Source of the DNA: an uncultured Bacteroidales bacterium
GTDB taxonomy: Bacteria > Bacteroidota > Bacteroidia > Bacteroidales > F082
Assembly: GCA_900317155.1 (NCBI GenBank)
Contig: ONFO01000009.1
Location: forward strand, 186,001-250,000
Reading direction: 5' to 3'
DNA: 64,000 bases
The translations under genes were made by a program, and so were the position numbers. The notes under the pieces are model-generated. The model ran no database searches. It had not been told where the DNA came from and worked only from the letters and a program-made list of their open reading frames with translations. Positions within the stretch are counted from its first letter, which is position 1. Each line of letters begins with the position of its first letter. Of the stretch, positions 44,376 to 60,591 are shown one piece after another.

Positions 44376-45041
44376 ATGGAAGAAATCCTTACATTCCTCG
44401 ACGACATACTCCATAACAACAATCGCCTCTGGTTCCAAGAGCACAAGAAACAATACCAAACGGCGCAGGCCAATTTCAACGCATTGGCCGAGCAAATCAT
44501 CGCCGGCGTACAGAAATTTGACGACAACTGCAAGGACCTGACCTTGAAGGACTGCACCTATCGCTTCTACCGCGACACGCGCTTCTCACCCGATAAGAGA
44601 CCATACAAGACCCATTTCGGCGTATTCGTCTGTCCCGAAGGCAAAAAGTCGATGCTAAGCGGCTACTACTTCCATCTGGAGGCCAAGGAGTCGGAATACC
44701 TCGGCCATAACATGCTCTGCACGGGGATGTATATGCCCGACACGACCATGCTGAAGACCATCCGCGACGAGATCCTCTTCAACGGCGAGCCTTTAGTTGA
44801 TGCCATCGCCAAAGCCAAAGGTTTCGACCTCGACACCAGCCACGCCATGAAGCGTGTGCCCAACGGCTATCCCAAAGACCATCCCCAAGCCGAACTCTTC
44901 AAGCAGCGTGACTGGCTCTTAGTGCAAGACCTCCCCGAGAAACGCCTCTCCGACCCGCATCTCGTCGACTGGGTGCTGAGCGAATTCGAGAAGACCAAGG
45001 ACTTCTGTCAGTGGCTGAATCGAACAGTGAGAGGGGAATGA
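44376..45041 (+). CDS. DUF2461 domain protein
   Basis: 221 aa from ATG 44376 (MEEILTFLDDILHNNNRLWF). Family features: LTFLDDILHNNNRLWFQEHK, YRFYRDTRFSPDKRPYKTHF, and GYYFHLEAKESEYLGHNMLC. DUF2461 is a conserved cytosolic family without a proven role. The longer frame from 44271 includes the terminator and is rejected. The palindrome at 45045-45074 starts just after the stop and may serve as its terminator. Confidence 0.9.
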   Translation: MEEILTFLDDILHNNNRLWFQEHKKQYQTAQANFNALAEQIIAGVQKFDDNCKDLTLKDCTYRFYRDTRFSPDKRPYKTHFGVFVCPEGKKSMLSGYYFHLEAKESEYLGHNMLCTGMYMPDTTMLKTIRDEILFNGEPLVDAIAKAKGFDLDTSHAMKRVPNGYPKDHPQAELFKQRDWLLVQDLPEKRLSDPHLVDWVLSEFEKTKDFCQWLNRTVRGE

Positions 45042-45044
45042 CAG

Positions 45045-45074
45045 TGTAGAGACGGTGTGCACACCGTCTCTACA
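45045..45074. repeat. Perfect 30-bp palindrome, left edge of the sigma-factor island
   Basis: TGTAGAGACGGTGTG followed by its exact reverse complement, then a run of A. Same family as the palindrome inside vsr (32878-32905). It begins 3 bp after the DUF2461 stop and may double as a terminator. Confidence 0.85.
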
Positions 45075-45164
45075 AAAAACAAAAAAATATTTCCGATTTT
45101 TAACATTTCGGCACGATTTTTGCATAAAATCGCCCCGCAATATAAGATTATGAACTCCTGAAAA

Positions 45165-45224
45165 ATGTCAGTTTTGAGCATTGGTTGGATTTCGTTGCCC
45201 TTATCTTGGCCTCGTTTGAAATAA
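45165..45224 (+). other. Possible leader ORF before the sigma factor, 19 codons
   Basis: ATG at 45165 encodes MSVLSIGWISLPLSWPRLK and a stop, 42 bp before the sigma-factor ATG. A GATTTTTG sequence, one mismatch from TAnnTTTG, lies at 45113-45120, so this frame would be in the 5' leader. Two Trp and many Leu codons could make translation sensitive to supply, but chance is not excluded. Confidence 0.25.
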
Positions 45225-45266
45225 GTAATTCACTAATATACAATAATTTAAAAACAAAACAAGCCT

Positions 45267-45935
45267 ATGAAAGACACTTACACCCAGCAGCAACTCCCAA
45301 CGAACAACAACACCAACCTCAAACTCAACGCCTACCAGTCACATCTGGTGGAGACACACTTTAGCCTTGTCAGTGGGATGGCGCAATCAATCCTAAACCT
45401 CCAAACGGGTTTCCACGGCCTGACAGAAAGCGACTTGTCGGATGCTGGCTACGAAGCCTTAGTTTTGGCGGCATGCCACTATGACAGCACCCGTAACGCG
45501 TCTTTCAAAACCTATGCCAGCAAGTGCATTTGGCATGCTATGGTGGCAGAAATCAACCGCTGGCATCCTTCTTTTGTAATTATGGTACAAGAGGTTGTGA
45601 ATGGAAGGCCAAAACTCGTTAAGACAGAAGTAAGCCTTTTCACTTGCCTCGACGACACGAACACCTTTACCCACACCCCTATGTGCTGCAACTGGGAAGC
45701 CGAGCAGGCTTGGCAGCTTGAGACACTGAACGAAGCCATTGCCACCCTCAAACCCGAAGAGCAGTTCTTGATTCGCTGCTATTTTGGCTTCGACAACAAG
45801 GCAATGAAACTTGAAGAGATTGCCAATAAGCTCAATGTCAGCCCACAAGCTGTTCACAAACGTATCAAGAATGCCATCGCCAAGCTGCGCACCTTCATCG
45901 AAGGTGCCAGCTCACCTTACCGCATGTGCGCTTGA
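45267..45935 (+). CDS. Sigma-70-family RNA polymerase sigma factor, small
   Basis: 222 aa. Region 2 is LTESDLSDAGYEALVLAACH then YDSTRNASFKTYASKCIWHA (compare DL.Q.G..GL..A...FD...F.TYA in primary/alternative sigmas). A ~45-residue variable linker with several Cys follows. Region 4 is LKPEEQFLIRCYFGFDNKAM and LEEIANKLNVSPQAVHKRIK, then NAIAKLRTF, the -35-binding HTH. No region 1.1 or region 3 is seen. It would redirect RNA polymerase. Four downstream units carry a shared TTGAAA-N17-TATA element that differs from the host's TAnnTTTG, so this factor is the natural candidate to read it. No anti-sigma gene is adjacent. Confidence 0.85.
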   Translation: MKDTYTQQQLPTNNNTNLKLNAYQSHLVETHFSLVSGMAQSILNLQTGFHGLTESDLSDAGYEALVLAACHYDSTRNASFKTYASKCIWHAMVAEINRWHPSFVIMVQEVVNGRPKLVKTEVSLFTCLDDTNTFTHTPMCCNWEAEQAWQLETLNEAIATLKPEEQFLIRCYFGFDNKAMKLEEIANKLNVSPQAVHKRIKNAIAKLRTFIEGASSPYRMCA

Positions 45936-45957
45936 CAAAAGTTTTTTCATGCCCTTG

Positions 45958-45990
45958 GTTGAAAAGCAGCATTCGGGGCACTATAAATAG
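45958..45990 (+). promoter_or_regulatory. Island promoter element 1 (before the AAA ATPase)
   Basis: GGTTGAAAA at 45958-45966, 15 bases, CTATAAATA at 45982-45990. Read as TTGAAA-N17-TATAAA. It lies 23 bp after the sigma-factor stop and 46 bp before the ATPase ATG. Confidence 0.7.
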
Positions 45991-46035
45991 AATGACAGAC
46001 GAAACAATATAAAGAACCTTTAACGCACCAGACTT

Positions 46036-47784
46036 ATGAAGAAAATGCAAGACCCCTTTGACTATGATGAACCTGTATTCACTCCAACCTACGCACAAAC
46101 CACCCCCGTCAACAAAACGACGTTGAAAAACATGACCCTCCTCGACAAGCTTGAGCAACTCATTCAGCTGGCACAAGGCAGCAGGCTCGAAGACAAGTTC
46201 TTCAAACGCCATAAGTCCCTTATCGAGTCGGTGGCTGCCGACTTGGAACTGACGCCTGAAGAGGCGGTGATGCTCTGTCCCTTCATCTCCGACTCTGAAT
46301 CGGCAGTGAGCAACCGAGAAATAATTGACTATTTCGGCTGCTCTCCCATCACCATCATGAGGAAGACACAAGACCTCAAGTCGCTCATGCGCCGGCGCTA
46401 CATCAGGCGACGTGGCACGTTTCACGGCAACAGTCCCGCCTACCAGCTGAGCGAGAAAGCTAAGAAAGCCTTCTGCAACAATGAGGCCCTGCCCGTCGTC
46501 AACACGGCCAACTTAAGCCCCGAGGAGTTTATGAAACACTTCGCCAGATTGCTGCGCGAAGCCGGCCGCAACAGCCAAATCGACGAGGAGGAGCTGCTCT
46601 ACGAAACCATGGAACTACTCAAGGACAACCCTCAGCTTAATATCGCCCGCACCATTAGTAGCCTAAGGGTGTATGACTACGACAAGCTGTATCTGCTCTA
46701 CTTCTGTAAGCGCCTCGTTGTCGACCACCAAGTGAGTGTCCCCCTTGACCAACTGGATTTTCTTGTTGACGACATCAACGACGAGTTCGACTTGATGATG
46801 AATAACGGGCGCCACCCCTTCATCAGGGAAGGACTGATTTCCATCAGCGGACAAGACAACTTCATGGCACGCAATCTATTTCAGCTCACCGACAAGGCGC
46901 GTAACCTCTTCCTCAGCGAGTACGACATCCCCGATAATATCGAGGAAGTCGATGAGGACGACCACAGCAACATGCTCAGCTGCACCGACATCAAACCCAA
47001 GGTTATGTTCTACTGTAAAGAGGACCAAGGTCAAATCGACACCTTACAGCACTTGCTCGAGGACGAACAGCTGCAAGCCATCCGCGAACGTTTGGAGAAA
47101 GCCAACATGCGTAAGGGCTTCAACTGCCTTTTCTATGGCACCCCTGGCACCGGTAAGACTGAGACAGCCTTACAACTGGCCCGCATGACGGGCCGCGACA
47201 TTATGCAGGTCGACATCTCGTCGATTCGCGATAAGTGGTACGGAGAGACGGAGAAGATAGTTAAAGGCATCTTCGAAAGCTATGCCCAAAAGGTGAAGAA
47301 GTCGAAGCGCATCCCCATCCTGCTCATCAACGAGGCTGATGCCGTGCTCTCGGTGCGTACGAGCGTGGGTGGCAACAACCCCACTCTCGAGAAGACGGAG
47401 AACGCGATTCAGAACATCCTCTTGGAGGCTATGGAGAACATCGATGGCATTATGGTTGCCACCACCAACCTCACTTGCAACCTCGATAGCGCCTTCGACA
47501 GACGTTTTTTGTATAAGGTGGAATTCCACCAGCCCAGCGTGGAAGCCAAGACCCACATCTGGCAAAGCTTCATCCCCGATTTAGCCGAGGCTGATGCCAA
47601 CGTGTTGGCCCACTCCTACGACTTCAGCGGGGGTCAGATTGAGAACATAGCGCGCAAAGTCATGGTTGACCACCTGCTCTTTGGTGGCACCCCTGACCTC
47701 AACCACATCGAAGAGCTCTGCTCGAAAGAACAGATTGCCGGACGCAACACGAATAGCCATAGGCCGATAGGATTCCGTAGTTAG
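46036..47784 (+). CDS. AAA ATPase with N-terminal winged-helix region
   Basis: 582 aa. Residues ~90-150 look like a winged helix (IIDYFGCSPITIMRKTQDLK, RRYIRRRGTFHGNSPAYQLS). The C-terminal AAA domain has Walker A FYGTPGTGKTETALQLA (about 366-382), a Walker B variant ILLINEADAVLSV (about 425-437) with Asn where Asp is usual, a sensor ATTNLTCNLD and an Arg finger-like FDRRFLYKVEF. The classical fold (GTPGTGKT...NEADA) resembles unfoldase/remodelling ATPases. It has promoter element 1, and the caspase-like gene follows after 22 bp, so the two probably act together, e.g. ATPase sensing or remodelling coupled to a protease. Confidence 0.8.
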   Translation: MKKMQDPFDYDEPVFTPTYAQTTPVNKTTLKNMTLLDKLEQLIQLAQGSRLEDKFFKRHKSLIESVAADLELTPEEAVMLCPFISDSESAVSNREIIDYFGCSPITIMRKTQDLKSLMRRRYIRRRGTFHGNSPAYQLSEKAKKAFCNNEALPVVNTANLSPEEFMKHFARLLREAGRNSQIDEEELLYETMELLKDNPQLNIARTISSLRVYDYDKLYLLYFCKRLVVDHQVSVPLDQLDFLVDDINDEFDLMMNNGRHPFIREGLISISGQDNFMARNLFQLTDKARNLFLSEYDIPDNIEEVDEDDHSNMLSCTDIKPKVMFYCKEDQGQIDTLQHLLEDEQLQAIRERLEKANMRKGFNCLFYGTPGTGKTETALQLARMTGRDIMQVDISSIRDKWYGETEKIVKGIFESYAQKVKKSKRIPILLINEADAVLSVRTSVGGNNPTLEKTENAIQNILLEAMENIDGIMVATTNLTCNLDSAFDRRFLYKVEFHQPSVEAKTHIWQSFIPDLAEADANVLAHSYDFSGGQIENIARKVMVDHLLFGGTPDLNHIEELCSKEQIAGRNTNSHRPIGFRS

Positions 47785-47806
47785 TAACAATAAACATATA
47801 AAGATT

Positions 47807-48337
47807 ATGATAGTGATTCACGTTGACACGATGGAAGACACTGCTCGTTTGAAGAAAACCTACGAGAGTCTTGAGAACGTAACCTTATTGTACAACCCTA
47901 CCAAGGAGGAGGTCGTCGCGCAGCTTAAGCGCGACGACGACCCCCTGGTGATGTGCCTCGGGCATGGGACCACAAGCGGGCTGTTCGGTACCAGTTGGCT
48001 GAATTATGTAGTTGACCGTAGTATTGTCAGCCTCCTGAAAGACAGAAAGGTGATCGGCATCTGGTGCTTTGCCAACAGCTTTGCCGAGCGTTACGGCTTG
48101 CAGGGCTATTTCACCTCCATGTTCGTTTCCAACATCAATGAAGCTGAAGGCTTTGGCTTCCCCGACAACAGCAACGAGGACATTCTCAACGAAGTCAACA
48201 TTTTTTGCGAGACCATCAACACCTACCTGAAAGGAGGCCTTCCGATGGACGAATGGGTGCCGCGCCTGCAAGCCGGTTGCCACAAGGAGAAGGACTTTGT
48301 GAAGTATAACTATGAGGGGATGAGATACTATGGGTAA
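47807..48337 (+). CDS. Putative caspase-like (clan CD/CHAT-like) protein, 176 aa
   Basis: I do not recognise a named family. The order beta strand (MIVIHVD), helix, strand LVMCLGHGTTSGLFG with H53-G54, helix, strand KVIGIWCFANSFAE with C87, then YGLQGYFTSMFVSN fits the His-Gly / Cys dyad of caspase-hemoglobinase (clan CD) peptidases, with a dyad spacing of 34 residues. No signal peptide is present, so it is probably cytosolic. At 176 aa it is a bare catalytic domain. It follows the AAA ATPase by 22 bp with an A-rich start (TATAAAGATTATG). A suicide or regulatory protease controlled by the ATPase is the inference; catalysis is unproven. Confidence 0.55.
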   Translation: MIVIHVDTMEDTARLKKTYESLENVTLLYNPTKEEVVAQLKRDDDPLVMCLGHGTTSGLFGTSWLNYVVDRSIVSLLKDRKVIGIWCFANSFAERYGLQGYFTSMFVSNINEAEGFGFPDNSNEDILNEVNIFCETINTYLKGGLPMDEWVPRLQAGCHKEKDFVKYNYEGMRYYG

Positions 48338-48386
48338 CGTGACAAGGAGGAGGAAAACTATGGTAAAGTTTTTATATTGTTCTCTT

Positions 48387-48419
48387 GGTTGAAAAAACCG
48401 TATCATAGTTCTATAGTAA
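48387..48419 (+). promoter_or_regulatory. Island promoter element 2
   Basis: GGTTGAAAA at 48387-48395, 15 bases, CTATAGTAA at 48411-48419 (TTGAAA-N17-TATAGT). It stands 64 bp before ATG 48484. Confidence 0.65.
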
Positions 48420-48483
48420 TTATGTGGCAGGGCGCCACAGGGGTGTCTTCACCCTCCATTATCATCAAAAAAACAATAATACT

Positions 48484-48897
48484 ATGGAGATCCAGCAAGT
48501 CAACCAAACGGAATTCGCCGAAATGCTCAAGTCGGCCGGCAACGAAACCCACCAAACCGCCTTCGAAAACGACGTGTGGTACGAACAAGTCACCGTTGGG
48601 GAGGTGACCTACCGTCACAAACTGCTTTCGCTCAAGAAACTGAGCGCGGAGTTGCTCACCAGGAAAGCTTTCGAGGCCAAGCCCTGCACCGAACCCATCC
48701 GTCTGCGCGCCCAAGGCAACGGCCCTGTCGTGGCGATTGTCTTCAACAGCAAGTCGACGGTGTTCTACCACCTTATGGTCGGCTCAAAAAGGGAAATGGC
48801 CCAAGCCAAACGTCTGGTAATCTACTTCGCCAAAAGCCTCCTTCCAAAGACCGCCAAGCAGCTGCAGGAAGCCCCATCGGCTTCCTGCGCGGCATGA
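48484..48897 (+). CDS. Hypothetical protein, 137 aa
   Basis: From ATG 48484 (MEIQQVNQTEFAEMLKSAGN). Not recognised. The middle RLRAQGNGPVVAIVFNSKST, then VFYHLMVGSKREMAQAKRLV suggests an alpha/beta cytosolic domain ending in a Lys-rich helix, and the tail is low-complexity (EAPSASCAA). The frame starting at 48424 overlaps the promoter element and is not used. First gene of the unit with promoter element 2; a membrane peptide and a lipoprotein follow on the same strand. Confidence 0.6.
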   Translation: MEIQQVNQTEFAEMLKSAGNETHQTAFENDVWYEQVTVGEVTYRHKLLSLKKLSAELLTRKAFEAKPCTEPIRLRAQGNGPVVAIVFNSKSTVFYHLMVGSKREMAQAKRLVIYFAKSLLPKTAKQLQEAPSASCAA

Positions 48898-48930
48898 AGG
48901 CCCTAATCATAAACCTAAATCCACAATAGT

Positions 48931-49185
48931 ATGACTAGCATTATCACTTGGTATATCCTTGGTATACTCATCTCGGCTATTGGCATCTTCTCATACGAAT
49001 ATTTCTATCTGTATGACAGAGAAATCGAGTACATCTCAACAAAAGAGATCATAGAAGATGTTTTGTTGTCATTTCTTTCGTGGCTAATGGTGGTTGGGCT
49101 CATTATTAGTGTATGCCTTGACATCTATATGGGATGGCCATCGAAAGGATACGATCTGAACATAAAGAAAAAGAAAATCAATTAA
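48931..49185 (+). CDS. Small two-TM membrane protein
   Basis: 84 aa with two hydrophobic segments (IITWYILGILISAIGIFSYE and LLSFLSWLMVVGLIISVCLD) joined by an acidic loop with IEYISTKEIIEDV, and a Lys-rich tail (NIKKKKIN). Topology probably puts both ends in the cytoplasm. No family recognised. Base composition is more AT-rich than its neighbours. In a defence-type operon such a protein could be a membrane effector or an immunity anchor, which is speculative. Confidence 0.55.
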   Translation: MTSIITWYILGILISAIGIFSYEYFYLYDREIEYISTKEIIEDVLLSFLSWLMVVGLIISVCLDIYMGWPSKGYDLNIKKKKIN

Positions 49186-49197
49186 GTTTAAGATATT

Positions 49198-49656
49198 ATG
49201 AAAAAGTCATTATTGCTTTTTGTATGGCTTGTTTTTGTGACCGGCTGTCAGCCTAAAACCATGGAATATGTTCATTACCACAACGAGCGCTTCGGTTTTG
49301 AGCTGGACTATCCCTCCTTCATGACGATGGATCCACCTCCTGAGAACGGCGATGGCATCTCTTGTCGCGGCAAAGGGTTGGAATTGACAGCTTATGGAGG
49401 CCTGGACATGACCTGGATGGATTTAGACGACACGGGCTTGACCACCCGTGACCTTTATCCACAAGGCGAGGTGTTTTATGTGCAACACGATATTGACGCA
49501 TTTGGGACGGTCCATTACACAAAAACAGCTCATTTCCCCAAGACAGACAATGGTGACATCATCCTCACGTTACATCTATCTTACCCACAAGGGCAAGTCG
49601 ACTCAGCGACAATCAATCATATTTTGAACAGTTTTGTTTTGCTTTCATGGCATTAA
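49198..49656 (+). CDS. Lipoprotein, 152 aa
   Basis: SPII signal with lipobox VTGC (MKKSLLLFVWLVFVTGC). The mature part begins with YVHYHNERFGFELDYPSFMT and ends ATINHILNSFVLLSW, the pattern of small domains that begin FGFELDYP in envelope lipoproteins (PsbP-like folds share it). It follows the two-TM gene by 12 bp and is probably co-transcribed. Function unknown; the presence of an envelope protein in the island implies part of the response acts at the cell surface. Confidence 0.6.
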   Translation: MKKSLLLFVWLVFVTGCQPKTMEYVHYHNERFGFELDYPSFMTMDPPPENGDGISCRGKGLELTAYGGLDMTWMDLDDTGLTTRDLYPQGEVFYVQHDIDAFGTVHYTKTAHFPKTDNGDIILTLHLSYPQGQVDSATINHILNSFVLLSWH

Positions 49657-49711
49657 TTAGTAATTTTGCAGCAAGAATTTTGTCTAAAACAATGCAATAA
49701 AAACAAAACAG

Positions 49712-49744
49712 GGTTGAAAAACCACCCCTCTGCTACTATATATC
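49712..49744 (+). promoter_or_regulatory. Island promoter element 3 (before the PARG gene)
   Basis: GGTTGAAAA at 49712-49720, 15 bases, CTATATATC at 49736-49744 (TTGAAA-N17-TATATA), 29 bp before ATG 49774. GGTTGAAAAACC could also fold as a small hairpin. Confidence 0.7.
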
Positions 49745-49773
49745 CTTGAACAACAATAAAACCATCATTATTT

Positions 49774-50755
49774 ATGCCTAGATTCAACTATGACCCCCAG
49801 GTCACCCTCATTAAGAGACACAACGCAGATGTGTTCCGCGAAACCACCAGCATCATCAAAGCTGGTTATTACATCACCCCTTCGGGCAAACGCATCGACC
49901 TCGATATGCAACCGATGATCGACGGAGGCCGTTGCTATCATAAGGATTTAGGTCCTGTTGATGCTCCAAAGCTGGGAAACGGTAGTCTTGTCAGGGTCGA
50001 AAAAGGCGACTGCCTCAAGGTGGCCGAGCAATTGGTCAAAGAGGGCTACAACCCAGCCCTGCTCAACTTCGCCAGTGCTGGACACCCCGGTGGTGGTGTG
50101 GAAACAGGAGCCCGCGCCCAGGAGGAGACCATCTGCCGGCGCAGCACGCTGACGCGCTCCATCTTCAGCTTTGATGGCAAGTATGCCGCTCGTTACGGTT
50201 ACGAGCACCAACTACCCCATCTCCCGCTCACTCGACTTCAGTGCGATTTATTCACCTCAAGTCACGGTTTTCCGCGAAGCGGGTCCCGACTATACGCTGA
50301 TGGAGGAGCCTTTCCAAATCGGCGTCATCACCAATGCCGCACTCAACATGAACGGCAGGTTCCCCATCCGTCTCACTCCCGACGGACACATCCCTGAAGA
50401 GGGCAAAGCCATCACGCTCAACAAGATCCGCACCATCTTCCGCATAGGCCTGATCAAAGGCCACGACAGCCTGGTGCTGGGTGCCTTTGGCTGCGGTGCC
50501 TTCAAGACCCCACCGCGCGAGATGGCTGAACTCTTCAAGCTGGTGATGGAAGAAGACGAGTTCAAAGACCGTTACCGCCTCATCACCTTCGCCATCCTCA
50601 GCGACCACAACGACCGCAGCGGCAACCTCGCCGCTTTCGAGGAAGTGTTCAAATACAAAAACGACATCGATGAAGAACGGAAACGCAAGGCTTTCATGAA
50701 CGCCTTGTCCAATATGTACTTACTTGAAGACCATGCAACTACACGAAATGATTAG
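49774..50755 (+). pseudogene. Microbial-type PARG (TIGR02452-like), frameshifted
   Basis: Two frames join to one protein of about 326 aa. The 5' frame (49774 to about 50205) has the PARG signature LNFASAGHPGGGVETGARAQ followed by EETICRRS, i.e. GGG-x(7)-QEE. The 3' frame (about 50205 to 50755) continues TNYPISRSLDFSAIYSPQVT, VFREAG, FQIGVITNAALN and SLVLGAFGCGAFKTPPREMA (the macrodomain GA.GCG.F motif). One extra base near 50195-50215 breaks the frame. PARGs hydrolyse poly- or mono-ADP-ribose from targets. The NADAR gene overlaps its end by 23 bp. All active-site motifs are intact, so sequencing error or a very recent mutation is likely. Confidence 0.85.
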
Positions 50756-51317
50756 GGACAACTATCCCGAGTATTACAGCATCGAACGGTATACTGCCGC
50801 CGAGACAATTTGTATTCGTGGGACAAAAGACGAATGGGGTATCTTTGGCAATTTTTATAAGACCCTCATCGTCGTCAATGGCATCACCTTCGACTGCACG
50901 GAACGCCTCTTCCACATCATGAAACTGAGACCCGAAGCTACCGATGGTTTCAAAGAGATGATGGAAGTCAAAGCTGGCATGGGAATTAAGATGCATGTTA
51001 AACACCTCTACAAGACCCATCCCGAGTGGTTTCACAACCATTGGCCACGCATGGTGGTCGACGCTATGAAATACTGCTTGACGCTCAAATATGAGCAGAG
51101 CGAAGCCTTCCGCAACGAACTAGAGCGAAGCAAGGGCAAGTATATTGTGGAAGATGAAACCTCAAGAAAGAAAGGCAAAGATGCCGACACCTGGGGTACC
51201 ATACTCAAAGGCGACGAATACGTAGGCCCCAACCTGTTAGGGCGGCTGCTCATGGAGCTCCGCGACAACGGACATTTTGAATTCAAGAACAAACCAACAC
51301 TCAGCTTCACATTATGA
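50733..51317 (+). CDS. NADAR-family ADP-ribose glycohydrolase
   Basis: 194 aa from ATG 50733; TTG 50724 and ATG 50748 are alternatives. NADAR features: TKDEWGIFGNFYKTLIVVNG, FDCTERLFHIMKLRPEATDG, KMHVKHLYKTHPEWF, and the C-terminal GDEYVGPNLLGRLLMELRD. Family knowledge: NADAR enzymes remove ADP-ribose from guanine bases and counter DarT1-like toxins, or act on free riboflavin/NAD derivatives. Here it sits between PARG and a PfkB kinase, with an ART-like gene two genes downstream. The start overlaps PARG by 23 bp and the stop overlaps the kinase (ATGA), so translation is coupled. Confidence 0.88.
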   Translation: MQLHEMIRDNYPEYYSIERYTAAETICIRGTKDEWGIFGNFYKTLIVVNGITFDCTERLFHIMKLRPEATDGFKEMMEVKAGMGIKMHVKHLYKTHPEWFHNHWPRMVVDAMKYCLTLKYEQSEAFRNELERSKGKYIVEDETSRKKGKDADTWGTILKGDEYVGPNLLGRLLMELRDNGHFEFKNKPTLSFTL

Positions 51318-52243
51318 CCAAAAAACGCATTCTCGGCACTGGCAACTTTGCCTTAGACATCATATACCAACGGGAGTACCCCGAAGGATATGACACCGCC
51401 AAAAAACGTAATCCTTTTGTTGACAAGAAGATTATTGAAGAGGTGGGGAACACTTGCGGTAATGTGATGTGCATGTTGCCTTATCTGGGTGTGGAGACCT
51501 ATCCCATCGGCCATTTCGACGAGTCGGAACAAGGCATGAAGATCGCCGCCGACCTAAAACGCTACGGTGCCAACACTCGCTTTGTCAAAAACAGCAAGGA
51601 TGGTGGCACCACCTTGATGACATGCATCCACAAACTTGACGCCAATAGACAACACACCATGAGCCACCGTGCCACCGCCCCAAACAGCCGCTTCCCGAAA
51701 AGAAAGCAGCTGCGTAAAGATGAGGTACAAGGCTTTGTCGATGCACTCGATTTCAAGCCCGATGCCTATTTCTTCGATGTATCCGACGCTGGTCCTCGCG
51801 AGTTGGCCAAAGTCTTGAAGGAGCAAGGCGTGCTAGTCTATTATGAGCCAGAAGGCAACAAAGAAATGAACAAGTTCCTTAAATGTGTTGAAGTCAGCGA
51901 TGTCATTAAGTTCTCAGGCACCAAAATCCTTGACACCTCGTTTGTGGCCAACTATCCCGATAAACTCTTTATACGAACCATGGGAGAGGAAGGCATGGAA
52001 TTCAACCTGCGAGGCCAAGGCTGGCAGAAGATTGCCCCTGTTCCTAACAACAATGTGGTTGATTGGGAAGGCGCCGGCGACTGGACCTCGTCGGTTTTCC
52101 TCGCCGAGCTATGCAAACTAAATAAACTCAACATCGCCCAACTCACCTCAGAGGAGGTACGCAAGGTGCTGGAAACCGCTGCCGCAACCGCCTCGCGCAG
52201 CGTGAGCTATATGGGCAGCAAAGGAATGATACATAGTAAATAG
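51314..52243 (+). CDS. PfkB-family sugar/nucleoside kinase
   Basis: 309 aa, ribokinase fold. Substrate-side features: ILGTGNFALDIIYQREYPEG and GNTCGNVMCMLPYLGVETYP, GHFDESEQGMKIAADLKRYG. The ATP side has the anion-hole/catalytic motif VDWEGAGDWTSSVFLAEL (DxxGAGD, catalytic Asp). It overlaps the NADAR gene by 4 bp. In this context it may phosphorylate ribose or another sugar released by the glycohydrolases, completing salvage. That role is inferred from location only; true substrates of PfkB proteins vary widely. Confidence 0.85.
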   Translation: MTKKRILGTGNFALDIIYQREYPEGYDTAKKRNPFVDKKIIEEVGNTCGNVMCMLPYLGVETYPIGHFDESEQGMKIAADLKRYGANTRFVKNSKDGGTTLMTCIHKLDANRQHTMSHRATAPNSRFPKRKQLRKDEVQGFVDALDFKPDAYFFDVSDAGPRELAKVLKEQGVLVYYEPEGNKEMNKFLKCVEVSDVIKFSGTKILDTSFVANYPDKLFIRTMGEEGMEFNLRGQGWQKIAPVPNNNVVDWEGAGDWTSSVFLAELCKLNKLNIAQLTSEEVRKVLETAAATASRSVSYMGSKGMIHSK

Positions 52244-52258
52244 TAAAAAACAAATAAA

Positions 52259-52855
52259 ATGATGACGTTCTATCATGGCACATCAGTGCTTTTCAAACAT
52301 TTCGACAATGACCATACCCTTGAAGGCGATGGCAAAATCAAACATGGTGCTGGCATCTACCTCACTACTGGTTACAAAAGGGCCGCTCATTATTCAGGTA
52401 AAAAGCCTGGAGCTACAGATTACTATGTTTACACTGTTGAAATACCCGATCTAACTTCTGATAATTGTATTGAATTCAAAGAAGCGGTTAACCCGTTAAT
52501 CATTGAACGAGCCGAAAAGGAACTGAAAGAATCTATACCTCATGAAGTTACAATGGATGGAAAACTGTTTCGAAAACATATTGCCATGAAACTTGCCGGC
52601 AAGAAGAAAAACGAAAAACTGACAGTTGACGACGAAATCGCTGCTGCTGATTTTCTGGTCAAGATAGGTGTGTTATACAACAAAGTGCCCTATATATGGA
52701 AAAAGCCCTTTATTCACTATGATGTTATCGTTATGAAAGCCGACGTCATGCGTATTGCTAAATTAGTGAAGGTAACTCTGGCCTTCGACAAGAAGACAAA
52801 GAATCTTGAACTCGTCGAAGGCTCAGAGATAGAAATCCCGTTAGATAGTTTTTGA
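52259..52855 (+). CDS. Putative ADP-ribosyltransferase-fold (ART) protein
   Basis: 198 aa. The N terminus TFYHGTSVLFKHFDNDHTLE and the next segment HGAGIYLTTGYKRAAHYSGK carry the first two ART active-site features: His in YHGT, and Tyr in the G.GIY(L/V)T strand followed by an AxxYA-type helix. YYVYTVEIPDLTSDN fits the next strand, as in phage/polyvalent ART and DUF3990-like proteins. The third catalytic residue (Glu/Gln) is not certain. Codon and base use are slightly AT-richer than the genes before it. With NADAR and PARG in the same unit it is the likely writer. Starts at 52259 or 52262. Confidence 0.55.
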   Translation: MMTFYHGTSVLFKHFDNDHTLEGDGKIKHGAGIYLTTGYKRAAHYSGKKPGATDYYVYTVEIPDLTSDNCIEFKEAVNPLIIERAEKELKESIPHEVTMDGKLFRKHIAMKLAGKKKNEKLTVDDEIAAADFLVKIGVLYNKVPYIWKKPFIHYDVIVMKADVMRIAKLVKVTLAFDKKTKNLELVEGSEIEIPLDSF

Positions 52856-52859
52856 AACT

Positions 52860-53063
52860 ATGAGTTTATCATACATCACCGGCGAAGAAGTCGCCAAAAT
52901 GGCAGGTTGCTGGGATATGTACATGACCTCGCAACAGAAAGACATCCTGAACGAACTCACCCCCGAGCACATCCATTTCGACTGGCCGAACTATACCTAT
53001 GCCCAACCCGCAGTGGGTTATCCACGGAGCGAGGTGTTCCTATACAAAAAAGATGCGGTATAA
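52860..53063 (+). CDS. Small hypothetical protein, 67 aa
   Basis: Starts 4 bp after the ART-like stop (MSLSYITGEEVAKMAGCWDM). Not recognised. The N-terminal YITGEEVAKMAG is helix-like, then ELTPEHIHFDWPNYTYAQPA. It has no signal or membrane segment. As the last gene of the ADP-ribose unit it might be an antitoxin or adaptor for the ART-like protein; position is the only evidence. Promoter element 4 begins at the base after its stop. Confidence 0.55.
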   Translation: MSLSYITGEEVAKMAGCWDMYMTSQQKDILNELTPEHIHFDWPNYTYAQPAVGYPRSEVFLYKKDAV

Positions 53064-53096
53064 GGTTGAAAAACCGCCTCCATGGCACTATATAGT
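53064..53096 (+). promoter_or_regulatory. Island promoter element 4 (before the aspartic protease)
   Basis: GGTTGAAAA at 53064-53072, 15 bases, CTATATAGT at 53088-53096 (TTGAAA-N17-TATATA). Distance to its gene start, 53 bp from CTATA, is nearly the same as element 1 (54 bp). Confidence 0.7.
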
Positions 53097-53140
53097 ATTG
53101 TTACACTTCAATTCATTCACCTGCTAAAACCATAAAGATT

Positions 53141-53830
53141 ATGAAAAAGACATTCACTATCAACAACTTCGACAAGCACCTCATCATTGAAGACAATGGC
53201 AAGACTTATCTGATTGACACCGGTTCACCCTGCAGCATTTTCGAAGGTGACGCCCTGGAGTTCCTCGGCCAAACCTGCCATAAGAACAACATGATGGCAT
53301 TGGCGGCCCAGGTCATGCCCACCGACATCTCCAATCTGCTCGGCATGCATGTCGACGCCCTTATCGGCAACGATATCCTCAAGCATTTTGCCCTCTGCTT
53401 CGACTATGGCCAAGGCGAGATTACTTTCAGCGATGAAGGTCTCACGCTTCCCGATGCCGTGGCCATCCCCATCGACACCAGCTTCGGCGTGCCCAAGGCG
53501 AAGATGAGCCTGCTGGGCGACGAAGGCCTTTTCTTCCTCGACACCGGAGCCAAAATCAGCTATGTGAATTCGGCGACCACCAGCGGGCTGACACCCGACG
53601 AGACCGACACCGATTTCTATCCTGGCGTGGGCGACTTCGAGACCCCCGTCTTCAATCTGGACACCACCATCGCCGACAAGTCTTTCCGTGTGCGCTTTGG
53701 CAACTTGCCCAAGTTGCTGGAGTTCTCCCTGATAGGCCTCTCTGGCACCAAGGGCGTGATAGGCTACGACTTCTTCAACAACTTCAAAGTGCTGATTGAC
53801 TACAGCGCCAACCAACTGTATCTGGCATAA
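53141..53830 (+). CDS. Cytosolic retropepsin-like aspartic protease with two DTG motifs
   Basis: 229 aa. Lobe 1 has YLIDTGSPCSIFEGD (about 27-41) and GMHVDALIGNDILKHF; lobe 2 has FFLDTGAKISYVNSA (about 129-143) and IGLSGTKGVIGYDFFNNF. Each half thus shows the D(T/S)G strand and the hydrophobic-hydrophobic-Gly element of aspartic proteases, so one chain can form the dimeric retropepsin-type active site. No signal peptide, so cytosolic. It carries its own island promoter. Bacterial homologues are often periplasmic and single-DTG; this tandem cytosolic form is unusual. Substrate unknown. Confidence 0.8.
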   Translation: MKKTFTINNFDKHLIIEDNGKTYLIDTGSPCSIFEGDALEFLGQTCHKNNMMALAAQVMPTDISNLLGMHVDALIGNDILKHFALCFDYGQGEITFSDEGLTLPDAVAIPIDTSFGVPKAKMSLLGDEGLFFLDTGAKISYVNSATTSGLTPDETDTDFYPGVGDFETPVFNLDTTIADKSFRVRFGNLPKLLEFSLIGLSGTKGVIGYDFFNNFKVLIDYSANQLYLA

Positions 53831-53852
53831 GAAGGTTAAACACACTAGCCTC

Positions 53853-54365
53853 ATGACGCAACAAGACCAAACCAAAATGACACCGTATTTGTTCAGGAGC
53901 GAAGATTTCAACGGATCAGGCATCCGAGAACCAAAGGAGGTCATACTCTTAGAAACTTGTAATCTTGGCAATACCGACATTTGGACCTATTGCCTCAACC
54001 ATTATTCATTGAGTGCCCAAACAAAACAATATATAACTTGGCTGCAGGAAGCATTTGAAGGGGAAAACAAACAAGAAAATCCTGAATATTACTACTGTAT
54101 TATAGATTTCATTTACACTGCCATAGATTGTTTGTTAGACGATTTGAAGAAACAGTTTGGCAAAGAACTGGTGTATTGTGTATGGCTTACGGACTATCAA
54201 AGTGTAGAAAAACTCTATGGTAGACCAACAACGATGTGCAAAGAGTCTGATATCATATTGTCGGATCTTGGAAAGGAGGGGGCTCTTTATGCTTATTTTG
54301 AAGAGCCTATGGAAATCAGGATTAGTGGTAGAGCGCTTAAAGAAGGGCAACTTATGGCGGCCTAA
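53853..54365 (+). CDS. Hypothetical protein, 170 aa
   Basis: ATG 53853 (MTQQDQTKMTPYLFRSEDFN) follows the protease stop by 22 bp. Not recognised. It has VILLETCNLGNTDIWTYCLN, YYYCIIDFIYTAIDCLLDDL and LVYCVWLTDYQSVEKLYGRP, Cys- and Tyr-rich, with a C-terminal FEEPMEIRISGRALKEG. No signal or TM. More AT-rich than the protease. Possibly the protease's substrate or inhibitor, based on adjacency only. Last gene of the island. Confidence 0.6.
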   Translation: MTQQDQTKMTPYLFRSEDFNGSGIREPKEVILLETCNLGNTDIWTYCLNHYSLSAQTKQYITWLQEAFEGENKQENPEYYYCIIDFIYTAIDCLLDDLKKQFGKELVYCVWLTDYQSVEKLYGRPTTMCKESDIILSDLGKEGALYAYFEEPMEIRISGRALKEGQLMAA

Positions 54366-54420
54366 CGAGCGAGGCTCAAATATTTGTCAACCGACCACAC
54401 CAAATAGATAGAGCGTATGA

Positions 54421-54573
54421 AAAAGCAATCCGTTGGCGGCCATCGACTTGTATATCAAAGTCAGCGCATTCGTTGCCGATCTATGCGAAAACCACCACGG
54501 CAACAACCCATTCTCACCGAAGAACTATAGCGGCATCAAAAAGCAGTACCCCAAGGGGGGCTTGAAATGGTGA
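54421..54573 (+). pseudogene. Gene remnant at the right edge of the island
   Basis: An open stretch of ~50 codons without a start, bounded upstream by a TGA, reads AIDLYIKVSAFVADLCENHH then GNNPFSPKNYSGIKKQYPKG and stop after GLKW. It is protein-like but unrecognised and probably the tail of a decayed gene. The rest of 54366-54581 shows nothing else. Confidence 0.35.
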
Positions 54574-54581
54574 AAAATCTG

Positions 54582-54589
54582 TATATTTG
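54582..54589 (+). promoter_or_regulatory. -7 element for the AddB-like gene
   Basis: TATATTTG, exact TAnnTTTG, 82 bp before ATG 54672. The island's own TTGAAA element is not present here, marking the return to host-type promoters. Confidence 0.6.
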
Positions 54590-54671
54590 CACGATTAAAA
54601 GGGGTCAAAACACCATGAATGCCTTTGTTAATTCAACATACAAATATCAATACAAACCATAAAAAGTGACC

Positions 54672-57347
54672 ATGAAACTAAACTTCAATCCGTATTATGA
54701 TTCCAAGGTCTTTGTAAAGACCCATGGATGTGCTTTGGGCGAGAAAGTGGTGGGGCCGCAAGGGTTGCTCAACGAGTTGGAACTCCGCGCAGGACTTACC
54801 GGCAGATATCTCGATAACTTCCAAAGGGCCATCTTCTACGCAAGAGGCATGAAAAAGGCTATCGAAAAGAACTCCTCCCTATTCTTTGCCAAGTCATTTG
54901 AAAAGGACAAACTAGGTACTGCAGTAAATGTAATGGCTTGGCGCGATGCCTTGACCAAAGCAGGTTGGAACAAAACCATCACAGGCAGCAGCCGACTCGA
55001 TGATTTGGCTTCGGTTGAAGCCTACTTTGAAGAAAAAGGCGAAGCCGACCGTTGGCGCATCGTTTTGGACTACGCCAAATCCACACCCCTGCTGAAAGAC
55101 ACAGATTGCATCGAGGTAACATGCGGCAAGGACCTTCTGGAGCCACTTTATAAACAGCTTTTCGACCACATGGCTTCCCAAGGATGTGACGTGAAATATA
55201 TCCCATCGCAAATCAACAGCAATTTGATTGAAAAGACGAGTGCCTATCTGTTCAAAAACAACCTGGAAATGGCCGAATGGCTGGCACAACAATCGCTGGG
55301 CGAGAATGACGTTGTGGTGTGCGACGACACCTCCATCCTCCACCTGGATCTGGCCATGGAGAACAAACCTCAAGTGGGGGCCGAAAGCCAGGCCATCGGC
55401 GCCATCATGCAAATATTCACGTTGGGACTCGGTTTGTTCAACAAGCCACTTGACATCAACAATTTGTTGGCGTATTTGCAACTGCCCTCAACTCCCTTGA
55501 GTTCTATATGCGTGAAGCGGCAGCATGACGATGATAAAACAGACTATTACATTTCGTTGCGTCGCGTATTGCTTGAACACCTTATTGAAGACAATGGCAT
55601 TAGCGAAGAATGGGACAAGCTTATTGATGAGGCTGTGTATGACCATGACGGAAAAGATATAAAAGAGTCGGACAAGCGAACCGACGCACTATTATTTGTC
55701 AATCAATGGAAACGGGTTAGTGGGAATGGCGACAATTGCGTGGTTAAGAAGGCCGAGGTAAGCAAGTATCTCAAAGCAATGAGAACATGGGCCAAAACCA
55801 ATCTGTTTGACGAAAACAAGGCCATGCAATTTAACGCCATAGTTAACAATTGCGAAACCATGTTGATGATTTTGGAAGACGAAGACGACACCATCAAGAC
55901 CCACGATTTGATGCTATGGGCCTCTCAAATCAGCCGACCCATCGAGTTGACCACACTATCGGCTCGCCAAGGATCCATCAATGTGACCAATGCGGTAATG
56001 GATATCTATTCCACGCCCGATTCACTCTATTGGGCTTGCACCACTCCCGAATATCATTTTCATTTCGACCTTGATTTCCTAACCCCAAAGGAAATCAGCA
56101 TCCTCGAAGACAACGGAATTGAAGTAGTTGAAAGGGAAAACCTGCTGAAAAACAAGCGCGAGATTATGCTGGGTATCTTGTCAAATGTGCAAAAGCATAT
56201 TTATATGCTCGAATGCAACATAATAGGAGGCGTTTTACCCGTTGAAGACCCGGTGGCTACCGAATTGAGGCACAAAGGTAATCTTAGTATGCAGTCCAAG
56301 TCACCTGACGGAAAAGACCTGGAACAAAGATCCACGGAAACCGCTTCCACCAAACAAGGCGAATACCAGTTAAAACCTTCAGTCTTTGAATTGCTCGACA
56401 CACCCAAGGATGACGGAGGGTTGAAACGCGAAGAGGAAAGCTATAGCAGTCTCGAAGAACTCATACAGCGACCTTTCGACTATGTCATGGATTACATACT
56501 CCATCTGCGCGAATACGGCAAGGCCGCCATGGCCGACATGGATACCGTGAAAGGCAATGTGGCCCATGCATATGTCGAAAAACTGACAGAAGCAGGGCAA
56601 CACGATGTGGCCTCTATGAGCCAAATCCATCAAGCCCAGTATAACGACATGATTAACCACTTGGCCGAAACCAACGGTTCCATCCTGCTCCTTGAAGAGA
56701 ACAACTTGGATTTCAAACGTTTCAAATCTTTGTTGCAGAAGAGCATAGATGTTTTGCTCAACATCATTGAACAAAACAACCTGAGCATTGTTGGTGCTGA
56801 AAAAGAATACAAGGTCGTTGTTCCCGTCATCGGAAAGTTGACCGCCAAAATCGACTTTGTGCTAAAAGACAGCGACGACAACATAGTCATCATCGATTTC
56901 AAATGGAACGAGAGCACCACCTACAAGAAGAAACTAGAGCAAAACGACGCCTTGCAATTGGCGGTCTATAAGGCTGTAGTCGAACAATTTATGAAAGATA
57001 CTGGCGACAACCATACGGTTAGTTTCATGGGTTACTATGTGCTACCTCGACACACCCTTTTCACCCTTTACGACACCCTAAAGCATCAAAACTGCATAGA
57101 AGTGGTTGTTCCAGAAAACAGCAATGACTTGATACAACTGGCAGCCAATTCCTATACCTACAGGATGAGCCAATTAAAGGATGATCTTATTGAAGAAGGC
57201 GAGAGTTTGGCACTTGCCGACTTGCAATACGTGAAAGACACCATAGATAAAAAGCTCTATCCTTTGAAGAGCGACTATTACGAAAAAGATTTGAAAGCCA
57301 ATAGTTATGGCAACAAAAACATCGTTTTGAAAGGAGGACTTGTCTAA
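54672..57347 (+). CDS. AddB-like PD-(D/E)XK nuclease/helicase-fold subunit
   Basis: 891 aa from ATG 54672. The N-terminal ~600 residues look like an inactivated helicase scaffold (start MKLNFNPYYDSKVFVKTHGC; no Walker A), with a cassette around GVLPVEDPVATELRHKGN. The C terminus (about 690-800) is a RecB-like nuclease: AHAYVEKL, LTAKIDFVLKDSDDNIVIID then FKWNE (D...DxK) and LQLAVYKAVVEQF (Q...Y). It pairs with the AddA-like gene, whose ATG overlaps the stop (TAATG). AddAB complexes resect double-strand ends. Sequence seems divergent from housekeeping AddB, so a defence role is possible. Confidence 0.75.
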   Translation: MKLNFNPYYDSKVFVKTHGCALGEKVVGPQGLLNELELRAGLTGRYLDNFQRAIFYARGMKKAIEKNSSLFFAKSFEKDKLGTAVNVMAWRDALTKAGWNKTITGSSRLDDLASVEAYFEEKGEADRWRIVLDYAKSTPLLKDTDCIEVTCGKDLLEPLYKQLFDHMASQGCDVKYIPSQINSNLIEKTSAYLFKNNLEMAEWLAQQSLGENDVVVCDDTSILHLDLAMENKPQVGAESQAIGAIMQIFTLGLGLFNKPLDINNLLAYLQLPSTPLSSICVKRQHDDDKTDYYISLRRVLLEHLIEDNGISEEWDKLIDEAVYDHDGKDIKESDKRTDALLFVNQWKRVSGNGDNCVVKKAEVSKYLKAMRTWAKTNLFDENKAMQFNAIVNNCETMLMILEDEDDTIKTHDLMLWASQISRPIELTTLSARQGSINVTNAVMDIYSTPDSLYWACTTPEYHFHFDLDFLTPKEISILEDNGIEVVERENLLKNKREIMLGILSNVQKHIYMLECNIIGGVLPVEDPVATELRHKGNLSMQSKSPDGKDLEQRSTETASTKQGEYQLKPSVFELLDTPKDDGGLKREEESYSSLEELIQRPFDYVMDYILHLREYGKAAMADMDTVKGNVAHAYVEKLTEAGQHDVASMSQIHQAQYNDMINHLAETNGSILLLEENNLDFKRFKSLLQKSIDVLLNIIEQNNLSIVGAEKEYKVVVPVIGKLTAKIDFVLKDSDDNIVIIDFKWNESTTYKKKLEQNDALQLAVYKAVVEQFMKDTGDNHTVSFMGYYVLPRHTLFTLYDTLKHQNCIEVVVPENSNDLIQLAANSYTYRMSQLKDDLIEEGESLALADLQYVKDTIDKKLYPLKSDYYEKDLKANSYGNKNIVLKGGLV

Positions 57348-60300
57348 TGAAAAACATCACCTATATCAATGCCGGAGCCGGCTCGGGCAAAACCTACCGC
57401 CTTACTGAGGAAATGGTCAACAAGGTGAAAGAGGGTCATTGTACCCCGTCGCAAATTATCGCTTCGACTTTCACCAATGATGCCGCAGCCGACTTGAAGA
57501 AAAACGCCCGCGAAAAGTTTCTGAAGAATGACTTGTTCACCGAGGCGGCAGAGCTCGATTCTGCTGCTATTGGAACCGTACACTCCATCGGATTGCAATA
57601 TATCAAAAAATACTGGTACAAATTAGGCTTGAGTGCTTCGGTTGAAACCATTACTGACGAAGCCAAAAAGAGTTATCTTAACCGCACGCTGACCAAGGTT
57701 GTTTCCGATGACGACATTACCTCTTTCCGTGAGTATGCCGAAACCTTTGACATTAAGCAAAGTCAGTCAAGCAAATATAACTATGAGTTTTGGAAGTCGT
57801 TGGTGCAGGAATTAGTGGGAAAAGCAGATGCTTTTGGCATTGACGACTTATCGGTTTCTGAAAACAAATCACTTGAATTGGCTCAACTGCTGTTAAGGGC
57901 TAACGGATGCTTCTCCTTTATGAACGAACGTTCAAAAAGCGATAATGAGTTACGCAATATGTATTATGACTGCATTCGCCGCATTTTCCGTATCGCAAGT
58001 GATTGGCGTGTACTCTTCAATCGGTTCAAGGATGAGCACGGCTTGATTGAGTTCAACGACATGGAGAGTAAATTCATTCAACTATTGAAAGACGCGGAAG
58101 TACAGGCTGAAATATCGCAGACCATCAAATATGTCTTTGTGGACGAGTTCCAAGACTCCAACCCAAAGCAAATCCAGATTTTTGACTTGTTGTCGGATTT
58201 GGTGGAACGCAGTTATTGGGTGGGCGACCCCAAGCAGGCCATCTATGGCTTCAGGGGTTGCGACACGGTGCTGGTACAAGCTTTGACCGACAAAATCATT
58301 CAAGATACGGAAAAAGGTATCAATGGCATGAGCTACGAAACTTTGAAAGAATCGCACCGTTCAGTAATACCTTTGGTGGACACCACTTCCGCGGTGTTCA
58401 AGAAAGTGTTTAACAACTTGCCTGCTGACATGGTTGGACTTACCGCATACAGGAAAGAAACATTACTCGACAACACCCCAGCGCTCTGGCATTGGGAGCA
58501 GGAAAAAACACTAGAACCTGGAAAAACAAGAGCTACGGCAAACAAAGAGAAACTCTTCAATTCCATAGCCCGTCAGATTCGAGAAATCGTGGATGGCAAG
58601 GGTGAAATCAAATATGTCTTCGACAAGGATAGTGGTAAAACTCGACCAGTACAATGCTCGGATATTGCCGTATTGGCCAGAAGCAACAATGATGTCGGAG
58701 AAATCACCAAAGCCCTAAATGACAAAGACATCCCAGTGGTTTGTGAAAACACGATGGATTGCAACAACAAGGAATTAAGGCTTGTGCGTTTGCTTCTCAA
58801 TTACATGATTGACGAATCACCACTCCTTAAGACTGAGATTGCACACCTTCTCTTTGGCGTAAAGACCTCAACAGTTATTGAGGATAAAGAGGATGTTTTG
58901 AATTTGGCTGACTTTGAAAAATTGAATGCCCTGAAAGACCAGCTAAAGACGCTTCCTGTGGCTGACATCGTGAAAGCAATAATCGTAGAATTGGATCTCA
59001 TCAACCAATGCAAAAAATGGGGTTTGGCTTCACAACGTGAACGCACCTTACAGGCTCTTATTGAAGACGCACAAGCTTTTGACGACAATGCCGAAACGAT
59101 GGGCGAAGCCTCCTCTATTGAACACTATCTCATACACTTGGATCAAGAAGGCATCGTTGTTAAAGAAGGCTTTTTCCAAGAGGGTGTACATGTGCTGACC
59201 TATCACAAGTCGAAAGGCCTACAATGGAATATCGTCATCCTCTGCTCTTTGGATGACGACTCATTGAACGAAAAAAAGCTTAAAAAACGCTTTGCCATCG
59301 GAGTCAACTACATCAGGGTAAGCGAACCCGATGCCAACCAACTCTATTCGGATTATTATCTTACTTGTCTCCCAGCGTTTTTGAAATCAGCTCAGTCCAA
59401 TTTGACTGAAGACATGATGACGGAAATTGACACACTAGCAACTTATCACAAATATGTTGATAGGCTTTATTATGAATCGCAACGCCTTCTCTACGTTGGA
59501 GTTACCCGTGCACGCGACTATCTCATTACCACTTCTCTTGACAAAAAGAACCCAATGCCTTGGCTGACCTATTCTGGTATTACGCCTCATATAGATGGCA
59601 CGGGTGATTATCAAGCTATTTGGGGAGAAGGGGATGGCATAACGGAGTCACGATTCGTAAAGGTGGACGATGATGGTAGTTATCAGCCACAACCCGAGCC
59701 GGAAACCTACTTCTGCCGAAAGGAACAAACGACGACAAAAGAGTGGGATGAAAAATACCTGTCGCCAAGTAAGATGAAAGACCCTGCGTTGACCGAAAAG
59801 GTGCAGCCTCGTGTCTTGTATCCCGTTAAAGACGAGATTCCCCATCCCATCCGGGTTGGCAATGGCGATGAGTACGACATTATGGGCACCTGCATTCACA
59901 ACATTTTCGCCATCTACGATCCCCAAGCCGAAGCAGCTGAAATGCGAAACAAAGCCCAAAACATAATCAACGCTTTTGGCATGAACAAGATGTTACCTGA
60001 TGTTGAAGGCATACTCCTGTCCATCTCCAGCCTCTACCAGTATTTGGAAAAGCTATACGGGAAACCCGTCAGGGTGGAGCACGAAGTCCCGTTCCGCCGC
60101 GAGACAAACGGCCAAGTGGTGTCGGGCGAAATGGACTTGCTCTGGTACACCTCGCCTACCGAATGTGTATTGATTGACTTCAAGAACTATCCTGGCATCA
60201 TGGCCAATGCTTTGAACAAGACAGACAAGGAATATGTTGGACAGTATGCAGGTCAACTCAAAGCCTACGAGGAGGCCTTGTTTGATGCAGGGTTGACCGT

Positions 60301-60358: not shown

Positions 60359-60385
60359 TAGAACACAATCTTATTCCTGATGTCT

Positions 60386-60413
60386 AAAAAGCCAGCCTTA
60401 GCTGGCTTTTTTT
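60386..60413 (+). terminator. Intrinsic terminator after the AddA-like gene
   Basis: Perfect 10-bp stem AAAAGCCAGC / GCTGGCTTTT with a CTTA loop, then T-run (60386-60413). The gap 60414-60562 is AT-rich without features. Confidence 0.85.
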
Positions 60414-60562
60414 GAGCTAAATAAATGAAAAAATCCAAACAAATAATTTGACGAAATTTGAAAAAATCCAAGGAAATTGTACCGCTTGTGTTCTGCTTGA
60501 AAAAAGTAGGATTAAATGACAAAAACAGAATAGAGCTTTGCTTTTTAATTCTGTTTTTTAAT

Positions 60563-60570: not shown

Positions 60571-60591
60571 CGGTGTAATAATTCCACATGT

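Follow-up and report, generated by a model that had tools for sequence, protein, structure and literature searches.

A patchily distributed sigma-70-family factor tracks a promoter-like motif ahead of exchangeable gene units in a Bacteroidales genus

Introduction

What reads a promoter-like element that recurs, unchanged in both of its core blocks, ahead of four gene units in one bacterial genome? The question is raised by a 64,000-nucleotide stretch of DNA from an uncultured, gut-type Bacteroidales bacterium (assembly GCA_900317155.1, contig ONFO01000009.1, positions 186,001 to 250,000), hereafter the window, in which a 222-amino-acid sigma-70-family factor is encoded at 45267..45935 (+) and the motif GGTTGAAAA-N15-CTATA follows four times. 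An earlier note, made from the letters alone, had proposed that this factor reads the four sites and that together they form a self-contained island. From comparison of the locus with genomes of the genus, we consider it likely that the factor reads GGTTGAAAA-N15-CTATA and thereby controls a modular regulon whose genes serve repair, proteolysis and the removal of ADP-ribose, and perhaps also defence.

Results

The motif in the window and its genome

An exact scan of the window returned four sites on the + strand, P1 (45957..45985), P2 (48387..48415), P3 (49712..49740) and P4 (53064..53092), ending 50, 68, 33 and 48 bases 5' of the ATG codons at 46036, 48484, 49774 and 53141. Each stands 5' of the first gene of a co-oriented unit, and all lie behind the sigma-70-family gene, as the earlier note had it; the positions given there hold for P2 to P4, while P1 starts at 45957 and not at 45958. 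From base composition, ~0.0008 exact matches would be expected in the window, and ~0.05 over the whole genome. At up to three mismatches the window held 8 matches against a shuffle mean of 7.18, and 46 of 100 shuffles reached 8; because there is no enrichment at this setting, the signal is carried by the exact form only.

Across the 3.8-Mb genome there are six exact sites, four of them in the window, against none for a reversed-pattern control, and nine against one when a single mismatch is allowed. The fifth exact site lies 21 kb further on the same contig, 5' of a gene for a WG-repeat-like protein (Pfam match just below cut-off), and the sixth on another contig (C44), 5' of a second AAA gene whose product is 35% identical to the AAA protein of the island. 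Because exact sites also occur this far from the sigma gene, the idea of a self-contained island has to be given up.

Promoter architecture and modular units

The layout of the motif supports a promoter. The distance between the two blocks was measured in 15 regions centred on sigma genes, which total 239 kb and of which some are close relatives: 25 exact pairs have a spacing of 15, one of 14 and one of 16, and there are none at 8-13 or 17-23; the family tally of this analysis includes one repeated locus (L119, a repeat of L048). Paired halves account for 27 of the 33 copies of GGTTGAAAA in these regions. One hundred shuffled consensus words gave no exact match; when up to one mismatch was allowed they averaged 0.14 matches, and the real consensus had 32.

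A logo was drawn from 34 collapsed sites (55 distinct ones, with similar spacers merged and the repeated locus left out). It shows an AT-rich tract 10-16 bases 5', an A right after the -35 core (27/34), a C two positions on (24/34) and a weak ATAG 3' of the -10, all in columns that were not used in site selection. Sites are oriented with the gene and usually lie 25-80 bases before its start, and in two loci (L120 and L130) the motif stands 240-260 bases 5' of the sigma gene itself. As a separate candidate we considered an RNA hairpin formed by GGTTGAAAAACC; it was rejected, since the base pairing is not conserved from site to site and the element is located 5' of the -10.

The genes led by the motif are unrelated to each other: they include AAA, c2, c8 (which heads an SbcD/SbcC-like pair), PARG, RmuC and 2H phosphoesterase genes, among others. 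In many species such units adjoin diverged sigma genes. P1 precedes the AAA gene in relatives too. Which units are present varies from species to species, and the majority come with a copy of the predicted promoter.

The rest of the window looks different. TAnnTTTG, a known host-type -7 element (PMC7366714, in excerpt), occurs 53 times, 20 of them within 200 bases 5' of a same-strand open reading frame (ORF), where six control words gave 2 to 7; this concentration 5' of genes fits the promoter usage claimed for the remainder of the window. None of P1-P4 has TAnnTTTG inside it or within 60 bases 3', the position by which a host primary-sigma promoter would be recognised.

Identity and distribution of the sigma factor

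The 222-amino-acid product matches Pfam Sigma70_r4 (1e-8, above cut-off) and Sigma70_r2 (0.0008, below cut-off) and the NCBIfam sigma70-ECF superfamily (1.7e-17, above cut-off), and a profile of its alignment matches SigA (2.4e-25) and FliA (1.7e-24) in the PDB. By these matches it is assigned as an alternative sigma-70-family factor with regions 2 and 4, joined by a short linker and followed by a C-terminal ...YRMCA.

At E ≤ 1e-8 the factor was detected in 15 of 99 genomes of the genus, in a patchy pattern and flanked by several distinct sets of genes. One contig scan for relatives returned three close ones (92, 82 and 80%) and a distant one (26%). A single-protein search of plasmids, phages and viral contigs found no relative. 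In the wider order, one of 392 other genomes sampled had one (E ≤ 1e-22; some of those sampled belong to the same genus, and seven candidates were scored per genome among those shown); this single locus looks mobile by eye and has no motif at up to one mismatch within 3.6 kb.

A second sigma class is encoded at L116 5852-6487, L117 13605-14225, L118 3278-3913 and L126 7577-8158. It lies close to the one-mismatch motif forms AGTTGAAAA and GGTTGAATA. In each of the four genomes where it was noticed the first class is present as well, although in G111 it is represented by two partial matches.

Association of sigma and motif across the genus

The 99 genomes hold 58 exact sites in 15/15 sigma-positive members and 24 sites in 21/84 others, against four matches in all for the reversed motif; in 24 genomes outside the genus the motif and its reversed control are level, at six each. 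One recurrent site, 5' of htrA, makes up 11 of the 58 and 14 of the 24. Non-htrA sites number 47 in 15/15 sigma-positive genomes and 10 in 9/84 others (Fisher 6e-12, a value that ignores phylogeny and the linkage of sigma to units, so that part of the association is island linkage). The earlier note had suggested looking for the motif in relatives with the same sigma, and every one of the 15 has it. Some loci are redundant: besides the repeat already mentioned, L048 lies on the same contig as G066, and L046/G112 and L047/G114 are apparently identical, with matching coordinates and sites.

Several of the ten leftover sites fall within or across ORFs (G061, G065, G070, G087 and G116). One genome counted as negative, G086, has two sites: one lies 5' of tig, the other 5' of units whose genes, labelled partly by eye, are c2-like, PARG-like and AAA. 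A diverged 276-amino-acid sigma ending in MCA is encoded as well, on a contig other than that of the motif-led units, and the genome is therefore better called sigma-positive; we left it negative in all association counts.

The conserved C-terminus

The final residue is A in all 19 aligned sigmas, down to 21% identity to that of the window; 18 have CA as their last two residues and one has AA. In nine representatives mean identity is 0.77 over the last three residues and 0.19 over the ten before. Among other ORFs of at least 100 codons in the same loci, 0/433 end in CA and 30 in A; complete c2 proteins have -AA or -VA at the C-terminus. Among the sigma neighbours scanned, which were not exhaustive, Pfam and NCBIfam revealed no anti-sigma gene. 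The available part of PMC7142297 describes an orphan Streptomyces factor, sigma-AntA, that ClpXP degrades via a C-terminal Ala-Ala. Because of this precedent and the conserved -CA end, a ClpXP-type degron is the likeliest explanation, and by analogy the tail suggests a signal for ClpXP-controlled turnover.

Genes of the island

All features of the island lie on the + strand. Behind P1, a 582-amino-acid AAA+ ATPase (46036..47784; Pfam AAA 2.3e-21) has an IetA-like C-terminal half (NCBIfam IteA 6.3e-23, 81.5 bits where the cut-off is 510; PADLOC IetA 1.1e-23) and an N-terminal part that is helix-turn-helix (HTH)-like on inspection. Its neighbour, a 176-amino-acid protein (47807..48337) with LGHG and IWC motifs, has an invariant H53 and C87 in an eight-row alignment at 77-95% identity to the window copy. 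It was called caspase/CHAT-like by inspection only, and Pfam, PDB, NCBIfam and PADLOC lend that label no support.

P2 leads three genes: c2 (48484..48897), encoding 137 residues ending in -SCAA, without a Pfam match and with motif-led relatives; c10 (48931..49185), 84 residues and membrane-like by inspection; and c7 (49198..49656), a predicted lipoprotein of 152 residues (Pfam LPAM_1 0.00017). For the 5' leader of this unit (48423..48455), folding predicts a pair of tandem hairpins (z -3.35). Its counterpart in L048 has z -2.94, and in the distant L069 there are two hairpins of other sequence (z -1.50); the stretch folded in L118 gave one hairpin (z -0.32). An Rfam scan of 44900-54600 found no match at E ≤ 0.1.

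The unit behind P3 begins with a microbial-type PARG of the TIGR02452 type (49774..50755), which this assembly breaks into two overlapping ORFs in different frames. L048 and L123 have single 330-residue ORFs, that of L048 matching PARG_cat_microb (1.4e-32) and TIGR02452 (1e-45). Next come a NADAR-domain protein, likely an ADP-ribosylhydrolase (50724..51317; Pfam NADAR 8.6e-13), a PfkB-family sugar kinase (51314..52243; Pfam PfkB 1.2e-13) and an ADP-ribosyltransferase (ART)-like protein (52259..52855; Pfam ART-PolyVal 5.9e-6, below cut-off), for which PADLOC gave no match. P4 precedes a gene weakly assigned as aspartyl-protease-like (53141..53830; Pfam Asp_protease_2 0.0094, below cut-off). In the excerpted text of PMC11833690, NADAR reverses RNA ADP-ribosylation at guanosine and PARG at the 2'-OH. 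Judged by sequence, the cassettes fit nucleic-acid repair and the removal of ADP-ribose marks.

Downstream of the island, at 54666-63999, are genes for a PD-(D/E)XK nuclease, a UvrD-like protein and an SNF2/PLD helicase. The UvrD-like and SNF2-type genes have PADLOC matches, and relatives of the SNF2 gene are also downstream in L046, L047 and L120. Because nuclease, UvrD-like and SNF2-type genes adjoin it, the neighbourhood of the island appears defence-like. Elsewhere in the window, 20885-23834 holds a two-gene unit that by inspection is a McrBC-like restriction system (first gene PADLOC REase_II 2.7e-12, second gene none). In a relative, the island units of G066 have beside them a gene (L119 1931-2800) whose product contains a sigma-54 DNA-binding domain (Pfam 3.4e-25).

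Discussion

Does the island sigma read the sites?

The earlier claim that the factor reads these sites gains from the co-occurrence of sigma and motif and from the promoter architecture; the idea that it alone reads them does not stand, as the htrA motif is present in 14 genomes in which the sigma was not found. A small comparison away from the island concerns the second AAA gene, which is unlinked to sigma: a site within two mismatch units was present for 6/9 sigma-positive and 2/10 sigma-negative orthologues, leaving aside L211, and also G020 and four paralogue loci, in all five of which the script found no Walker motif. Five further AAA paralogues that were scored had no site. The comparison points the expected way, on a small sample.

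Several observations weigh against reading by the island sigma. Upstream of the window's own sigma gene there is no exact motif. Diverged sigmas have 50% identity in the recognition helix although the motif is fixed, and the helix of the second sigma class is different. Motif-led units also occur in G030, a sigma-negative genome that is 85% complete, and in sigma-negative G021 an exact site stands 5' of an SbcD-like gene. An M42-peptidase-like gene, which looks to be within a mobile element, has an exact site in sigma-positive G029, G112 and G114 and likewise in G018, which is sigma-negative; a part of the 47 sites may therefore be incidental. A feedback loop through tig-clpPX as a general target of the motif was considered and rejected. 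The motif was present there only in G086, one of 25 genomes parsed (30 were given; G093 was not parsed and four with split matches were left out), and the other 24 have a tRNA-Leu-like sequence 5' of tig (by eye); ClpXP feedback is therefore not general.

The most serious alternative, which we think unlikely, is that a conserved host sigma that reads the htrA promoter also transcribes the island units, with the island sigma a bystander or acting on other targets. The htrA promoter has the same two cores around a palindromic CATTAATG, and the genome of the window has its own copy (L045 7051-8582). At up to three mismatches it is detectable in 37/99 genomes, 12/15 sigma-positive and 25/84 sigma-negative; the cores are exact in 10/12 and 14/25 of these, a difference too weak for the state of the htrA site to serve as a test of the sigma, and we dropped it. 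Exact htrA cores are present in 14/84 sigma-negative genomes, five of them 92-99% complete, and since no island sigma was detected in those 14, some other factor probably reads the htrA promoter there. A second RpoD-like sigma gene lies 3' of htrA in the window's own genome, and RpoD-like relatives are present in 96/99 genomes of the genus (the htrA-linked one not counted apart).

Moreover, TAnnTTTG falls between 120 bases before and 60 bases after 17/66 sites, where ~5% is expected, and inside the spacer of 8/66. This count leaves out the repeated locus, with which it becomes 20/71, and many of the sites are orthologous. Being so common near the sites, it suggests that some units may also be read by the primary sigma. 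Among P1-P4 it is near P3 only, as the element TAATTTTG (49661..49668, +) upstream of that site; its offset is the same in L048 (= L119) and L123, and for this reason unit 3 may also have a host-type promoter. What a host sigma leaves unexplained is why sites other than that of htrA follow the patchy occurrence of the sigma gene. Sigma-negative genomes are nearly htrA-only, with 10 other sites in 84 genomes and several of those inside or across ORFs, and the RpoD-like factor has, on inspection, an ordinary primary-type recognition helix.

Quite improbable, in our judgement, is that a DNA-binding regulator, such as the AAA protein with its HTH-like N-terminal part, uses the sites as operators. 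At several sites GGTTGAAAAACC forms a partial palindrome, and the palindrome CATTAATG in the htrA spacer resembles an operator. However, the GGTT..AACC palindrome is not conserved in its second half, column 10 being C in 10/34, and L046, which has no AAA gene, still has two sites. The motif consists of two non-symmetric blocks, found 14-16 apart only, behind an AT-rich tract and usually 25-80 bases before starts in the direction of the gene, which argues for a promoter. That the sites are leftovers of a single duplicated leader with no regulatory meaning is hardly credible: exchange does relate the units, and there are orthologous copies among the sites, yet cores and spacing stay fixed over 34 distinct spacer groups.

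A model for the regulon

We therefore return to reading by the island sigma, and sketch how it might work. The 222-amino-acid factor would bind core RNA polymerase and start transcription at promoters with GGTTGAAAA as the -35 and CTATA as the -10. In the window this would jointly switch on the AAA+ ATPase with its 176-residue partner, c2/c10/c7, the ADP-ribose-handling unit and the protease-like gene, and elsewhere in the genome the second AAA gene and the WG-repeat-like protein as distant members. Species would swap cassettes (SbcCD-like, RmuC, 2H phosphoesterase, PARG, ADP-ribosylglycohydrolase), most with their own promoter copy. The level of the sigma would probably be set by proteolysis via the -CA end, and stress would relieve that degradation. 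Because relatives pair the sigma and its promoter with different units, the arrangement may be a spreadable switch for repair genes, and probably for defence genes.

A fuller scenario is that a spreading sigma assembled a switchable set of immunity and repair genes by tagging them with its promoter: a cassette bringing GGTTGAAAA-N15-CTATA along would come under its control, in cis or in trans. ClpXP, acting on the -CA tail, would keep the sigma low until stress frees it, and many otherwise separate defence and repair functions, ADP-ribose removal among them, would then fire together. We offer this tentatively, as a rather doubtful extension.

Defence and repair cassettes are usually described one system at a time. 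Here, one small, patchy sigma appears to coordinate many exchangeable units via a promoter that the units carry themselves. If so, a Bacteroidales genus gains a promoter class distinct from TAnnTTTG, further members of the regulon can be found by their motif, and the switch is directly testable. In the open-licence library searched we found no match for such a sigma with defence in Bacteroidetes, nor for the pairing of an AAA protein with a caspase-like one.

Comparison with known systems

Among named sigma groups, FliA/WhiG (group 3) is one of the nearest: it is the first named NCBIfam subfamily and among the best PDB profile matches. The scores are 54.9 bits against a family cut-off of 201 and 49.5 against 189.6, and most island-type sigmas have ~180-245 residues and no clear region 3. 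The island promoter also differs from the FliA promoter.

The first unit resembles IetAS in that an AAA+ ATPase with an IetA-like C-terminal half stands beside a putative protease. IetS is a subtilase-type protease; the island's partner protein is not recognised by PADLOC, and the ATPase scores 81.5 of the 510 bits set for IteA. Of DarT-NADAR, the NADAR member is present (8.6e-13), next to an ART-like protein that matches ART-PolyVal below cut-off and has no counterpart in PADLOC.

With sigma-AntA, as the accessible part of PMC7142297 presents it, the island factor shares the lack of a recognised adjacent anti-sigma and a short C-terminal Ala motif conserved in orthologues. The island sigmas end in -CA, except for the one -AA row, and adjoin stress cassettes rather than antimycin genes. 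Finally, the third unit is like the NADAR/PARG modules of PMC11833690, as far as its excerpt goes, in bringing together NADAR, a microbial PARG and an ART-like gene; it differs in standing behind a sigma-type promoter and in its company of a sugar kinase.

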